Origin: Phormidium tenue FACHB-1050
GTDB lineage: Bacteria > Cyanobacteriota > Cyanobacteriia > Pseudanabaenales > Pseudanabaenaceae
Length of the DNA: 44,432 nucleotides
Assembly (NCBI RefSeq): GCF_014696925.1
Contig: NZ_JACJQY010000047.1
Span: forward strand, 1-44,432
Direction: 5' to 3'
The translations under genes and the position numbers were made by a program. Positions 8,072 through 29,088 of this stretch are shown one piece after another. The notes under the pieces were generated by a model. The model was not told where the DNA came from and searched no databases. It saw only the letters and a list, made by a program, of their open reading frames with translations. Each line of letters starts with the position of its first letter. Position 1 is the stretch's first letter.

Positions 8072-11000
8072 ATGGCTACCTCTAAATATCAGGTTTTAAT
8101 TATCGCGGCTAACTATAACGATTTGGTTTGTCAGTATCTTGCGTTGTCTAGCCATACAAGCACTTTAAAACACCGCCAAAATTCTTACCATATTCAGCTT
8201 TGCCTGTCACATTTTGAAGCCATAGAAGCCAGTCTAATCAAAAATCCTGATTGCATTTTGTTGGATTGGGAATTGCCCAACCTAGATGGATCAACTTTTT
8301 TACAACAGATGAGTTTGCGTCAAATTCCTGTAGTGCTTTTGATAAGCACACTCATGGAGAAATTAATATCCAATATGCAATGGGATTATCATGATTATTT
8401 AATTAAAGAAGTCCTAAATAAAGAATTAATTTTCTCAGCAATTAGGAATGCGATCTCCCAATCTCAGTTACATCAAGAAGTCATCAGTACCAATAAAAAA
8501 TTGCAAAAATTTGTATTTAATAATAGCTTTACTGAGATACAGACCAAACAGAATCAAACCCAGCAAGATTTTTTTGAACAAGACATTAAGACAGAATTTA
8601 GTAAATATAATCTTTCGGAATCATTACTAGAAATCCAAAATCGTTGCCTAGGCTGTATTGCGATGGGCGATCCCCTTGCAGAAACATTTAATCTTCTTTC
8701 GTTGTTAATTGATTTGCAAACAAATGATGCCCTATGTTCTATTTTAGTGATTGATCATCAAGACAAACTCAAATGTATTGCTGAACCTAATTTGCCAAAT
8801 GATTTTAGTCTTGTTCTCAATGATATTCCTTTAGATGAAATCACGCCTGTTTTTGGTAATACTCTTGAAGGCAAAAGTGTCAATATAAGTGACATTACTA
8901 ATTCCCATTTGCAAGACTATAAAAATTTAGCAATATCTCACGGTTTCAAAGCTCTATGGATCAATCCAATTCTTGCACGCAATCAACAAAAGGTATTAGG
9001 ATTCTGCATTCTATGCTATCGAGAGTTATTACAGCCATCCATAGAAGAACTCAAAGTAATTAGGAATACTATTTACGCTGCAAGTATTGCCATTGAGCGC
9101 AATCACAGTGATGTCAATTTACAGCAGCAGTTGCAACGCGAAAAATTGCTCTATCAACAACTACAACAAGAATTAAGCGATCGCCAAAAAGTTGAGTTCG
9201 AGCTTCGAGAAAGTCAAAAATTTATTCAGCAAATCGCCGAGGCATCCCCAAACATTCTTTATCTATACAACGTACAAGAGCGGCGAAACATCTACGCGAA
9301 CCGCGAGATTTATTGCATACTTGGATACACGACCCAAGACGTACAGGACATGGGGGCAGATCTTTTTCAAAGACTGATTCATCCCGATGACATTGGTCAA
9401 GTATCGATTAATTTAGCGCGACTCCATGCTGCGGAAGATGGCACAATCATCGATATGGACTACCGTATGCAACATGCTAATGGAGAATGGCGTTGGTTGC
9501 ATAGCCGAGATGCTGTGTTTAGTCGAGATGAGCATGGTAATATCTTGTTGGTAATTGGCAGCGCTCAAGACATCACTGATCGCAAACGCTATGAAAAAGC
9601 TCTACAAACTAGCGAAGCCCATCAACGAGCCTTAATCAGTGCGTTGCCAGACCTACTCATGCGAATTAATCGAGAAGGAATCTATTTAGAATTTCTTGCC
9701 AGTCCAAATTTCCATGTTTTAGGTAGTAGTACTGATTTGGTAGGAACCAGCATCTCACAAGTTCTATCCCATGAGTTAGCACAAGAACGCATTGAATATA
9801 TTTGCAAAGCATTAGATACTAATTCTATTCAAGTATATGAACAGATTCTTCTCATTGATGGAAAAACTCAAGTTGAGGAGGTGCGAATTGTTCCCTATGC
9901 TAAGGACGAAGTTTTGCTTTTAGTTCGAGATATTAGCGAAAAGAAGCGTACTGAGGAAGCACTACGCATCAGTGAGAGAAGATTTGAGCGCATTGCTGCA
10001 ACTCTGCCTGGGATGATTTACACGATGATTCAACGTGTAGATGGTTCTCATTATTTTGAATACATTAGTTCGGGAGTCGAGAAAATTAGTGAAGTAGCGG
10101 TTGAGCAAATATTAGAAGATCCAAAATGGCTTGATGATAAGCACCATCCCGATGATCGAGCAGGCTTTGCTGCTGCCGCTAATCATAGTGTTACAACGAT
10201 GACCCCCTTTAATCATGAATGGCGCATTATTACTCCTTCAGGTAAGATTAAATGGCTACAGCTTAGATCTTTACCCGAAAAGATAGAAGAAATTGATGTC
10301 GCACTATTAAACCGCCAACATGGAGATATTGCTCGGCATGGCATTATGTTAGAAATAACCGATCGCAAAATTGCTGAAGAAGCTCTGCGTGAAAGTGAGA
10401 GAAGATTTGAAAGGATCGCCGAAACTTTACCTGGAATTATCTATACTACCATTCAACGTCCCGATGGTTCAGAGTATTTAGAGTATGTAAGCTCTGGCGT
10501 TGAAAGAATCTATGAAGTTACAGTGGAGGAAGCTCTTAATAACCCTCAATTTATCTACGATTGTATTCATCCTGAAACTCAAACAAGTTTGTTCAAATCC
10601 TTAAATCGTAGTGCTGAGAATTTATTGTCTTTTAGTAATGAATGGCGCATTATCACTCCTTCAGGCAAGATTAAATGGCTACAGATTAGTGCCTTTGTGG
10701 AAAAAACTCATGGAATGGATATCAATCTATTTAAACGTCAAAATGGTGACATCGTAAGGCATGGACTTGTCTTAGAGATTACTGATCGCAAACTTGCTGA
10801 GCTACAAGTAAGACAGCAGACAGAGCAGCAAAAGCTAATTGGTTCAATCACTCAGCGCATTCGAGCCTCTCTTAACCTTGAAGAAATCCTGAATACAACT
10901 GTTGCGGAAATACATCAGGTCTTAAACTCAAGTAGAGTATTGGTTTATCAAGTATTTGCAGATGGAACGGGGACAGCTATTGCTGAATCTGTAAGCTTTA

Positions 11001-12244
11001 GCTGTCAACCAATCCTAAATAACACCTATAGTGAAGAAGTTTTTCCCATCGAGATCCAAGAACAATATCTAAAAGGAAAGGTTTATGCGCTCAGCGATCT
11101 TGAGATTGAGATGATGTTACCATGCCTAGTAGAATTTCTTAAAGAAATCAAAGTAAGAGCCAAGCTAGTCGTCCCAATTATTCAAGATGAAAAACTTTGG
11201 GGATTGCTAATTGCTCATCAATGCGATCACCCACGTCATTGGCAAGATTGGGAAATAGATCTGATGCAGCAGCTATCTAGCCAATTTGCGATCGCTATTC
11301 AACAGGCGAGCCTATATCAACAACTGCAACTGGAACTGCACGATCGACAATATGCAGAAAAGCTCATTCGTCAACAGGCAGATAGAGAGGCTTTACTGCG
11401 CGAGATTATGCAGCGTATTCGCCAATCCCTTGATCTGCATACTATTTTTGAGACCGCCACTTTAGAAATTCGGCAGTTTCTGCAAGCAGATCGTGTTGGC
11501 ATCTTCAAATTTGAACCTGACTCTGGTTTTAATGATGGTGAATTTGTTGCCGAATCCGTAGTTGCTGGATTTTATTCAGTAGTCAAGATTCCTTGTCACG
11601 ATCATTGTTTTGGTGAGCGATATTCTCAGTCTTACAAATATGGAGACTATCAAGCCGTAGGGGATATCTACAATGCTGGGCTTTCACAATGTCATATTGA
11701 TGTCTTAGAGGCATTTCAAATTAGAGCAAATTTAGTTGTCCCACTACTCAATGGTTCATCACTATGGGGACTCATCTGTATTCACCAATGTTCATCGCCT
11801 CGCAATTGGGAAATAGAGGAAATCATCCTCATCCAGCAAATTAGTAATCAATTAGCGATCGCCATTCAACAGGCAAACTTATATCAGCAAGTACAGGAAG
11901 AGCTAGCAAACAAAGAAACACTGTATATCCAGTTAGCCAATGAATTGCACCAAAAGAAAGTACTGCTCAAAGAAGTACATCACCGAGTCAAAAATAATTT
12001 GCAAGTGATGTCTAGTCTCTTGAGAATGCAATTCCGCAAAACCACGCCCGATCTCAAAATCTTGATTGAAGATTACCAAAATCGGATTCAATCTATGGCT
12101 TTAATTCATGCCCAATTACATCGCAATGATGATCTCGCTAGCATTGATTTCCATGACTACATATCCGACTTACTCTCTAATTTATTTCAGTGCTATGGCA
12201 ATGCATCGGCAAATATTCAATCTCAAGTAGATGTTACTAACTGA
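8072..12244 (+). CDS. Multi-sensor histidine kinase, N-terminal part (split by MITE)
   Basis: 1390 residues. Order: receiver-like domain (1-130, Asp65 in LLDWELPNLDG), GAF1 (about 190-350), four PAS domains (about 383-503, 519-625, 636-767, 776-907; the last two are near-duplicates starting RRFERIAxTLPGxIYT), GAF2 (about 923-1080), GAF3 (about 1108-1270) and a HisKA_2 dimerisation domain with phospho-acceptor His1303 in KEVHHRVKNNLQ. GAF3 has D1177-H-C1179-F and C1207-H1208, the two cysteine motifs of DXCF-type cyanobacteriochromes, so blue/green light sensing is plausible. The ATPase domain is missing: a 165-bp element starting at 12241 brings in a stop after DVTN. Before insertion the protein would have had ~1500 residues. 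Confidence 0.92.
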   Translation: MATSKYQVLIIAANYNDLVCQYLALSSHTSTLKHRQNSYHIQLCLSHFEAIEASLIKNPDCILLDWELPNLDGSTFLQQMSLRQIPVVLLISTLMEKLISNMQWDYHDYLIKEVLNKELIFSAIRNAISQSQLHQEVISTNKKLQKFVFNNSFTEIQTKQNQTQQDFFEQDIKTEFSKYNLSESLLEIQNRCLGCIAMGDPLAETFNLLSLLIDLQTNDALCSILVIDHQDKLKCIAEPNLPNDFSLVLNDIPLDEITPVFGNTLEGKSVNISDITNSHLQDYKNLAISHGFKALWINPILARNQQKVLGFCILCYRELLQPSIEELKVIRNTIYAASIAIERNHSDVNLQQQLQREKLLYQQLQQELSDRQKVEFELRESQKFIQQIAEASPNILYLYNVQERRNIYANREIYCILGYTTQDVQDMGADLFQRLIHPDDIGQVSINLARLHAAEDGTIIDMDYRMQHANGEWRWLHSRDAVFSRDEHGNILLVIGSAQDITDRKRYEKALQTSEAHQRALISALPDLLMRINREGIYLEFLASPNFHVLGSSTDLVGTSISQVLSHELAQERIEYICKALDTNSIQVYEQILLIDGKTQVEEVRIVPYAKDEVLLLVRDISEKKRTEEALRISERRFERIAATLPGMIYTMIQRVDGSHYFEYISSGVEKISEVAVEQILEDPKWLDDKHHPDDRAGFAAAANHSVTTMTPFNHEWRIITPSGKIKWLQLRSLPEKIEEIDVALLNRQHGDIARHGIMLEITDRKIAEEALRESERRFERIAETLPGIIYTTIQRPDGSEYLEYVSSGVERIYEVTVEEALNNPQFIYDCIHPETQTSLFKSLNRSAENLLSFSNEWRIITPSGKIKWLQISAFVEKTHGMDINLFKRQNGDIVRHGLVLEITDRKLAELQVRQQTEQQKLIGSITQRIRASLNLEEILNTTVAEIHQVLNSSRVLVYQVFADGTGTAIAESVSFSCQPILNNTYSEEVFPIEIQEQYLKGKVYALSDLEIEMMLPCLVEFLKEIKVRAKLVVPIIQDEKLWGLLIAHQCDHPRHWQDWEIDLMQQLSSQFAIAIQQASLYQQLQLELHDRQYAEKLIRQQADREALLREIMQRIRQSLDLHTIFETATLEIRQFLQADRVGIFKFEPDSGFNDGEFVAESVVAGFYSVVKIPCHDHCFGERYSQSYKYGDYQAVGDIYNAGLSQCHIDVLEAFQIRANLVVPLLNGSSLWGLICIHQCSSPRNWEIEEIILIQQISNQLAIAIQQANLYQQVQEELANKETLYIQLANELHQKKVLLKEVHHRVKNNLQVMSSLLRMQFRKTTPDLKILIEDYQNRIQSMALIHAQLHRNDDLASIDFHDYISDLLSNLFQCYGNASANIQSQVDVTN

Positions 12245-12412
12245 TGTTACGTGGATAGAATCCCTACGATCATCTAAGTCTAGGGCTGGCACGGGGGCAC
12301 AGCCCCTACAAAAATCTAAATTATTGGAGTAGGGGCAATCCCCCCGTGGTTGCCCTGTCGTGCTAGCAACAAGAGATTCATCATCTGAGTTCCACGTAAC
12401 ATCAGTTACTAA
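12234..12412. mobile_element. 165-bp MITE-like insertion with 7-bp target duplication
   Basis: The element spans 12241-12405. Its ends are 15-bp perfect inverted repeats (CTGATGTTACGTGGA and its complement), flanked by direct repeats TTACTAA at 12234-12240 and 12406-12412. It encodes no protein. The interior holds GC-rich hairpins (GGGGCA...TGCCCC types). Removing the element and one direct repeat joins GAT GTT ACT AAT ATT TTC in frame with the downstream ATPase domain, which confirms the boundaries. Confidence 0.92.
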
Positions 12413-12719
12413 TATTTTCTTACCCATCGAGCAATCTATCCCTCTAGGGCTCATTATTAATGAATTAATATCCAACACTTTGAAATATGCGTTCCCGCAT
12501 GGGTCGGGTGAGATCAATATCCAATTGATGCAAACTGCAAATAAATACCATTTAACTGTTGCAGATAATGGAATTGGAATTCCTCAAGAAATTGATTTAG
12601 AAAATACCGATAGCTTAGGAATGCAGCTAGTCTATAGCCTAACCGAGCAACTAGAAGGACATCTAATTTATAGCAGTGAGAATGGAACTAAGTTCCAAGT
12701 GATTTTTCCTGTCCTTTAA
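12360..12719 (+). CDS. Detached HATPase domain of the split kinase
   Basis: The longest frame starts at a GTG inside the MITE and gives 119 residues. The kinase-derived part starts at about residue 15 (VTNIFLPIEQSIPLGLI). It holds the N-box NELISNTLKYAFPH, the G1 box VADNGIGIP, and the C-terminal GTKFQVIFP of a HATPase_c domain of the HisKA_2/HWE type. It is the missing C-terminus of the upstream sensor. Whether it is translated from the GTG is unknown; no clear Shine-Dalgarno is seen. If made, it could complement the sensor half in trans, but loss of function is the simpler expectation. Confidence 0.85.
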   Translation: MLATRDSSSEFHVTSVTNIFLPIEQSIPLGLIINELISNTLKYAFPHGSGEINIQLMQTANKYHLTVADNGIGIPQEIDLENTDSLGMQLVYSLTEQLEGHLIYSSENGTKFQVIFPVL

Positions 12720-13254
12720 GATTTCATTTAAGATTTGCTGGGTAATTATCGAAGATTTTTAATTTTTTAATCTTAGCTACTCCCTTCCCACCGAAGAAAT
12801 AGACATATAAAACCAAGAAATAGCGTGGCGGCGCTTCGCGCCGCCACGTCTATTCTTTAACTGGGAAGGGAGTATGTAATACCAAAACAGAAAATGACTC
12901 AGCCATTTTCTGTTTTGGTATTACATGGCTCTAGCTTAGGACAAGAGATTTGCTATAAAACAAACTTTGATACTGAGCTATAATCATCACTGCAATTTAG
13001 TAATGTAAACATAAGCTCACTGAAGTAAGCTTTTCCGAATATTTTGCTTAAATATGTAGCAGTCCTTAATCCTTTACTAAGATTATAATTGTGAGTAACA
13101 AATCTTGAAATTGTAATCTACTTAAATTTTAGGATTGCTATAGTAATCCTAAATAATTTGTGGAAGCACACCCCTTAGTGGTGCGCTTCCACAAATTATT
13201 TAGGATTTAGGACTGCTATATGTCATAGGTGTCAGTTTAAGAGAGGTCAAAATA
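12720..13254. repeat. Cluster of three nested or long palindromes
   Basis: A gene-free 535-bp gap. 12779-12873 has outer arms ACTCCCTTCCCA/TGGGAAGGGAGT enclosing a GGCGGCGC-TTC-GCGCCGCC hairpin. 12874-12926 is a 23-bp-arm palindrome whose ends contain ATACCAAAACAG. 13145-13207 has arms AATCCTAAATAATTTGTGGA and an ACACCCCTTAGTGGT-like centre. None encodes protein. The last one lies just before the response-regulator gene and could affect its leader RNA. Confidence 0.85.
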
Positions 13255-14361
13255 TTGAGTACCAGAGTAGTAATAGTTGAAGATGAAAGATTAGTCGCAC
13301 GAGATATTGCTCAAATACTCCAAGACGAAGGCTATGTAATCTGTGCGATCGCGTCGGATGGCGAGACTGCAATTAAAAATATCTTAGACTCTGCTCCTGA
13401 TTTAGTCTTGCTTGATATTCGGATTAAGGGAGCAATCGATGGTATAGATGTTGCTAAATTCATTCAATCCTTCTGTGATATTCCCCTTGTATATCTCTCA
13501 GCTTTCTCAGATGCAGAAACTCTAAAGCGTGCTCAATTAACCAATCCTATGGGATATGTAGTCAAGCCATTCCGTAGTGAGCAGCTTCTTTCGACAATTA
13601 CAATCGCATTAACAACGCATAGCGCCAAACACACAGAGGAGCAAGAATCAGTTCTTAAAGACAAGTTCCTCTCAATTATTAGAGAAGAACTACGTAACCC
13701 CCTCAATGCAATTTTAGGATTCTCAGAGTGCTTAAAGCAAGAGATGCTCGGTACAGTTAATTCAGAGCAAATAGAAGCTTTACAAGCCATTAACAGCAGT
13801 GGTAATCATTTACTCAAAATGATTAATCGAATCATCGATCTATCAATGCTGGAAGCAGGAAAGCTTACATTACAAAGTGATCTAGCACCAATTACACCAA
13901 TCTGTCACTCAGCAATAGATCAAATCAAAGCGGAAGCAGCTCAAAAATCAATTCAAATTGAAGTAAATATTGCTGAAGCTCTTCCCTACTTAATGATTGA
14001 TGAAAGGCGGATGTTCCAAGTATTAGTCAATTTACTTCAAAATGCTGTCAAGTTTACTCCTAACGATGGGCTGATCAGTTTAATAGTTAAGCACAATTTA
14101 GACTCCATATTAACTGAGCAAACAACTACTATTCAAATTTCTGTAATAGATACAGGTATAGGCATTGAACCTCAAAAAATAGCTAAATTATTTCAACCCT
14201 TCAATCAATTTGATAAGAGTTACAATCGCCAAAATAATGGTATAGGGTTAGGACTCGCCTTTGTCAAGAGAATTGTCGAACTACATGGTGGTAAGGTTGA
14301 AGTACATAGTAAATTAGCAGAAGGAAGTTGTTTTACGGTAAGTTTGCCCTGCAAGGTTTGA
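13255..14361 (+). CDS. Response regulator-pseudo histidine kinase
   Basis: A 368-residue protein from a TTG start preceded by GAGAGGT (13241-13247). Residues 1-120 are a CheY-like receiver with phospho-acceptor Asp54 (LVLLDIRIKG) and the usual Thr/Ser and Lys (VVKPF). Residues 130-205 match a HisKA domain, but the H-box reads IIREELRNPLNAILGF where active kinases have MSHELRTPLN: the histidine is replaced by Glu144. The HATPase domain (about 245-365) keeps the N-box NLLQNAVKFTP, the G1 box DTGIGI and the G2 box GIGLGLAFVKRIVELHGG. It may bind ATP without autophosphorylating, perhaps as a partner for the split sensor upstream. That pairing is inference from position. Confidence 0.88.
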   Translation: MSTRVVIVEDERLVARDIAQILQDEGYVICAIASDGETAIKNILDSAPDLVLLDIRIKGAIDGIDVAKFIQSFCDIPLVYLSAFSDAETLKRAQLTNPMGYVVKPFRSEQLLSTITIALTTHSAKHTEEQESVLKDKFLSIIREELRNPLNAILGFSECLKQEMLGTVNSEQIEALQAINSSGNHLLKMINRIIDLSMLEAGKLTLQSDLAPITPICHSAIDQIKAEAAQKSIQIEVNIAEALPYLMIDERRMFQVLVNLLQNAVKFTPNDGLISLIVKHNLDSILTEQTTTIQISVIDTGIGIEPQKIAKLFQPFNQFDKSYNRQNNGIGLGLAFVKRIVELHGGKVEVHSKLAEGSCFTVSLPCKV

Positions 14362-28801: not shown

Positions 28802-29088
28802 TGGGGATTTTGTACTCATTACTGAGTATTACATGGCGATCGCTAACCAAATTGTTGAAGCCTATAGTGGTAAGATTAGACTAACTTTTGAAGTCGCGAT
28901 CGCCTTGCATTCAAGTGTGACGCTTAAAGCTAAAACCTATTTTAGGGTTGATTATGCTGCGATAGAAGGGTCGGGGGGATGAGGGTTCAACGTAACATCA
29001 CAGTTACTAATTCTTTATTAATATTGACGATTAAGCAAAATCTTGAATTTTGTTTTTTAATTTTACCTAGCTCCCTGCTAATAAGTTT
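28802..29088. other. Intergenic gap with MITE-end-like segment
   Basis: 287 bases. Two HIP1 sites near 28837 and 28895. Bases 28987-29011 read CAACGTAACATCACAGTTAC and on, closely resembling the right end plus target of the MITE at 12241-12405. No gene is supported; frames crossing the gap are short. Confidence 0.5.

Follow-up and report, generated by a model that had tools for sequence, protein, structure and literature searches.

What became of a large sensor kinase in Phormidium tenue FACHB-1050 whose gene is interrupted by a short inverted-repeat element? Either the two pieces form a natural split kinase, or an intact kinase gene was recently knocked out; the first-pass annotation, made from the letters alone, had offered both readings. 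The window, i.e. the whole stretch of DNA that was analysed, comprises 44,432 nucleotides of one contig (NZ_JACJQY010000047.1), and the break lies at 12234-12412.

The element and the interrupted gene

The features of the locus are as follows (window coordinates and strand, with the basis of each assignment in brackets).

8072-12244, plus strand: 5' part of the interrupted sensor kinase, 1390 aa (ORF; Pfam; model of an intact homologue)
12234-12240, no strand: left copy of the 7-bp target duplication TTACTAA (direct sequence)
12241-12405, no strand: MITE, 165 bp (42 matches in its own genome; present in 16 of 58 genomes; empty site in relatives)
12241-12255, plus strand: left terminal inverted repeat CTGATGTTACGTGGA (direct sequence; genome-wide motif count)
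12282-12356, no strand: inner imperfect hairpin of the MITE, 28-bp arms, 79% complementary (repeat search; RNA fold)
12360-12719, plus strand: 119-aa ORF with a GTG start inside the element (ORF; HATPase_c from residue 26, 52.8 bits; structure)
12391-12405, minus strand: right terminal inverted repeat TCCACGTAACATCAG (direct sequence)
12406-12412, no strand: right copy of the target duplication TTACTAA (direct sequence)
13255-14361, plus strand: response regulator-HisKA-HATPase gene, intact (Pfam; tblastn in 10 of 10 relative loci)

The perfect 15-bp terminal inverted repeats (TIRs) and the 7-bp repeat TTACTAA that the first-pass annotation had described can be read directly at 12234-12412; between CTGATGTTACGTGGA and TCCACGTAACATCAG there is no mismatch. 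The element is thus short, has perfect ends and contains no transposase ORF, as is typical of MITEs. When up to two mismatches were allowed, the TIR was found at three sites in the window versus 0.01 expected, two of them being the element's own ends. With at most one mismatch it occurs at 77 sites in the genome, and a reversed-pattern control gave none. The stretch 12234-12412 folds as RNA with -78.1 kcal/mol, versus a mean of -44.7 for shuffled sequences (z -8.2; none of 200 shuffles was as low). At 28987-29001 an isolated degenerate copy of the TIR (two mismatches) is followed two bases on by TTACTAA; it is probably a remnant of the MITE family.

The 5' ORF contains a partial receiver, PAS, GAF and HisKA_2 domains together with the opening helix and strand of the ATPase domain, and it ends within the element. 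The HisKA_2 assignment is clear (PF07568, 90.8 bits), and its KEVHHRVKNNLQ, which we take to be the phospho-acceptor H-box, is conserved in alignments with homologues. Three claims about the reading frame were borne out: the insertion brings a stop, an in-frame TGA at 12242-12244 inside the left TIR; a GTG in the element opens a second frame, 12360-12719; and removal of the element plus one repeat (172 bp) restores a single frame of 1,491 codons plus stop, which reads ...DVTNIFLPIEQSIPLGLI... across the former break. A second stop or frameshift was found in neither half of the kinase.

The uninterrupted gene in relatives

From a collection with one genome per species, ten relatives were chosen that gave matches to the left as well as to the right of the insertion site. 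In all ten the homologue spans the insertion point uninterrupted. The joined flanks align over the empty site without any gap in seven of them; of the other three, two show short gaps on the upstream side of the junction, and one gave a match to the right half only. The nearest homologue is 92% and 90% identical at the DNA level on the two sides of the site. The ATPase domain is continuous in the nine aligned relatives and gave a Pfam match in both relatives that were scanned. The contigs with close kinase homologues include those of Pseudanabaena biceps, P. frigida and Pseudanabaena sp. 'Roaring Creek'. With the gene unsplit in ten of ten relatives, the proposal of a recent disruption stands.

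In all ten relatives the kinase is also followed by a gene homologous to the response regulator gene at 13255 (a partial match in one). Between the two genes, further repeats are found in the window. The first, at 12778-12875, is short and has the inverted ends TACTCCCTTCCCA / TGGGAAGGGAGTA and a GC-rich hairpin; the closest relative (G021) lacks it at the corresponding position. It has 58 matches in its own genome, six of which (itself included) are near full length at 87-100% identity and one at 74%. The second, at about 13129-13205, is palindromic, lies just upstream of the response regulator gene and is likewise absent in G021; a search of the same genome as the window with 13125-13222 gave 52 matches, both strands counted. 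In total, three lineage-specific repeats lie within about 1 kb. As a separate observation, the kinase homologue of another genome (G008, L122:5917-5923) shifts frame near window residue 1193, which is either an independent break or a sequencing error.

Two repeats inserted just downstream of the kinase, together with a homologue that changes frame at another place, could mean that the kinase was already dispensable or under relaxed selection and that the MITE was a late, nearly neutral hit. This is compatible with a recent knock-out, and we regard it as possible though rather unlikely. It draws further support from the last 305 codons before the break, where 16 synonymous and 16 non-synonymous substitutions fall on the window lineage versus 25 and 7 on the closest relative (Fisher p 0.036). 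Yet these 305 codons show no elevated pairwise dN/dS (0.09 versus 0.12 in an intact pair), and the cut-off part shows no such shift (6 synonymous and 2 non-synonymous versus 6 and 5, p 0.63; pooled p 0.12, with the compared regions chosen post hoc). Moreover, the kinase carries no further stop or frameshift, and sequencing error may account for the frame change in G008. The substitution data do not decide whether the kinase had begun to decay earlier.

The MITE family and its target sites

The 165-bp element is a MITE, as had been proposed: it is present in many dispersed copies, it is flanked by a duplication typical of its family, and relatives have the empty site. In its own 5.6-Mb genome it gave 42 BLAST matches at E ≤ 0.001, some of which are two hits to one element, and the best copies besides that in the window are 99% and 98% identical. 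At E ≤ 1e-10, matches were found in 16 of 58 genomes, its own included, all from one genus, Pseudanabaena. The call as a MITE, for which other copies of the element had to be sought, is not weakened by this search.

Target sites were surveyed in 45 distinct TIR-paired elements of 60-2000 bp with at least 20 bp of flank, among the loci collected by then. Exact duplications measure 7 bp in 20 elements, 6 bp in 11, 8 bp and 5 bp in one each, and 3, 2 or 0 bp in the remaining 12. Thus 31 of the 45 have an exact duplication of 6 or 7 bp and 14 do not, which we counted as a constant length. The consensus of the twenty 7-bp duplications is T-W-A-N-T-W-A (T 19/20, T/A 18/20, A 19/20, any base, T 19/20, A/T 19/20, A 20/20), and TTACTAA conforms to it. 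This match of the insertion target to the family consensus also bears on a technical explanation, namely that the interruption is an assembly artefact or present in part of the culture only. Short-read assemblies do fail at repeated elements, and this genome consists of 89 contigs; however, the duplication is exact to 7 bp and the complete element lies within one contig. We therefore consider such an artefact extremely unlikely.

To what extent copies of this family sit in genes was surveyed with 26 complete copies from the same genome as the window (TIRs with at most two mismatches, a length of 60-400 bp and flanks of 300 bp to either side; copies outside these limits were left out). Eight of these have an open frame of at least 90 codons across the virtual empty site. 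With exactly 7 bp removed, only the window copy has at least 100 codons to either side. The longest frame after that of the window copy, at a copy in L028 (344 + 250 codons, with 6 bp removed only), was rejected as an in-gene insertion, as it proved to mark the end of a gene: the target duplication of this copy (L028:1500-1652) provides the TAA stop of a desaturase-like gene, a name taken from the reading of its sequence. TAA is a frequent end of the target duplications of this family. In the open-licence PMC literature, 14 bases of the inverted repeat were not found, nor was any work that joins Pseudanabaena, cyanobacteria, MITE and insertion sequence.

A candidate for mobilisation

A possible source of transposase is a 1134-bp insertion sequence (IS) in another genome of the genus (G005, L136:1405-2538), which has perfect TIRs identical to those of the MITE and an open frame of 365 codons. 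Of this frame, 355 aa match the NCBIfam model NF049921 (transpos_IS701_2) with 350 bits (cut-off 250), placing the transposase of the putative partner in the IS701 family. Both full copies of this IS in G024 are flanked by 7-bp duplications; at the full copies in G005 and G019 no target duplication was seen. The partner transposase, pieces of it or more distant relatives gave matches in 16 of 21 searched genomes (E ≤ 1e-10).

In the genome that carries the window, the protein search and the fetched DNA loci yielded only pieces of this IS. Two protein matches were obtained: one of 39 aa (100% identical), which extends up to the end of contig C85, and one on C56 of 55 aa (60%), which contains a stop. 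The DNA pieces measure 178 bp (97%, at the end of C85), 85 bp (99%, C23) and 140 bp (79%, C56). The autonomous element that shares its TIRs with the MITE is the 1.1-kb IS of other genomes of the genus. The two have only 15-16 bp at the ends in common. That this IS moves the MITE is what we infer from the shared ends and the shared duplication length, and mobilisation in trans by it is most likely.

Another candidate, an IS1380-family IS within a 1796-bp stretch of G022 (L118:3356-5151), was rejected as the partner because the IS1380 had itself inserted into a MITE copy. The other long IS1380 copies of G022 span about 122-1757 of this stretch (starts at 121-134, ends at 1753-1770; a few are shorter). 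The 87% match between the end of this candidate and the MITE thus belongs to the host MITE and not to the IS. Since IS1380 is not the partner, the empty search for it in the genome of the window is uninformative on mobilisation.

Where the cut falls, and what it leaves

The first-pass annotation placed the cut exactly between the dimerisation and ATPase domains. The Pfam spacing and a fold model correct this: the break falls inside the ATPase fold. It lies 15 residues past the HisKA_2 match and 7 residues ahead of the HATPase_c match. The kinase core of Pseudanabaena biceps (L212) was modelled from 9 sequences with a mean pLDDT of 84; in the model, residues 90-104 form a helix and 111-117 a strand, with the following helix spanning 125-146, and by alignment the break corresponds to model residue 120. 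The ATPase domains of solved kinases align to this model from about residue 85 onwards with 126-137 residues aligned, for example VanSA (8dwz, 86-220), CheA (1i58, 84-220) and ThkA (3a0y, 85-220; positions aligned on the P. biceps model). As these alignments start at about 85 and the break is at 120, the model places the cut within the ATPase fold; the sensor half retains about 35 residues of this fold, with its initial helix and strand. Judged by the same model, the 119-aa downstream ORF encodes only part of an ATPase domain, roughly the first 35 residues being absent. The window kinase thus has no complete ATPase domain in one protein, since the element cuts it.

Could the two pieces nevertheless work together? 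The sensor half, with the first helix and strand, would then be complemented in trans by the remainder of the ATPase domain, started from the GTG of the element and acting on the histidine of the sensor half. Both halves are open, the 119-aa fragment retains its HATPase_c match, and the cut-off part shows no decay (dN/dS 0.11 versus the nearest homologue, 0.13 in one intact pair). However, the low dN/dS may be inherited from the time before the insertion, the fragment is predicted to lack about 35 residues of the fold, and the split was found in none of the ten relatives. Translation of the fragment is also doubtful. In the RNA fold the GTG is positioned at the base of the inner hairpin, inside the inverted-repeat stem; it is unpaired in the centroid fold, but two of its three bases are paired in the minimum-energy structure of this strongly folding element, and no purine-rich ribosome site was seen ahead of it. 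The idea that the element supplies a start for a free ATPase domain is therefore poorly supported, and a two-piece kinase of this kind is very unlikely. If it did exist, its regulation would hinge on translation within the hairpin of the element.

A working split kinase is far less probable than a recent knock-out: of the two readings first offered, the knock-out has gained, and the working split has lost with the incomplete ATPase fragment and the unsplit relatives. We consider it highly probable that a MITE, moved by an IS with like ends, recently broke an intact HisKA_2 kinase gene and cut its ATPase fold. The observations behind this are the element and its duplication, the empty site in relatives, the restored frame, the copy number and the position of the break on the fold model. 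In this course of events, a MITE from a family spread through the genus Pseudanabaena would have entered a TTACTAA target in the intact gene, apparently recently as far as the sequences tell, most likely moved in trans by the IS with the same inverted repeats and a transposase named IS701 by NCBIfam. The insertion would halt translation at once through the TGA in the inverted repeat and shift the frame, and the ATPase fold would be severed after its first helix and strand, so that the sensor half could not be phosphorylated by its own ATPase domain. The plain expectation is that the function of the kinase was most likely lost.

Comparison with known systems

The best solved match to the kinase core, by sequence as well as by fold, is the blue-light histidine kinase EL346 (PDB 4r39/4r3a). 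EL346 is intact and far smaller, whereas the gene in the window would encode a kinase with PAS and GAF domains, about 1,490 residues long, and has its ATPase domain cut. The locus probably represents a natural knock-out of a large sensor kinase, with the downstream regulator gene still intact.

Disruption of cyanobacterial genes by MITEs is already known, and in this respect the event described here is ordinary. In Anabaena sp. 90, according to PMC3542288, 15 of 147 MITEs lie in disrupted ORFs, which became pseudogenes; inactivation of mcy by MITEs is cited in the review PMC10969869. Like the window MITE, those of Anabaena sp. 90 are short inverted-repeat elements present in many copies in a cyanobacterium. 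They are, however, described there as type II, without similarity to the inverted repeats of the IS elements of that genome, whereas the window MITE shares its inverted repeats with an IS that is present in related genomes and, in pieces, in the genome of the window. A Pseudanabaena MITE family is documented here together with a candidate mobilising IS.

This putative partner resembles the IS701 family in its transposase, which scores to transpos_IS701_2. For this family, PMC2266710 gives a length of 1400-1550 bp and 4-bp duplications. The partner IS, in contrast, measures about 1.1 kb and is flanked by 7 bp in G024, and most of the MITEs are flanked by 6-7 bp. The palindromic 6-7 bp target T-W-A-N-T-W-A and the 7-bp duplications of the IS thus set this pair apart from the 4 bp described for IS701.
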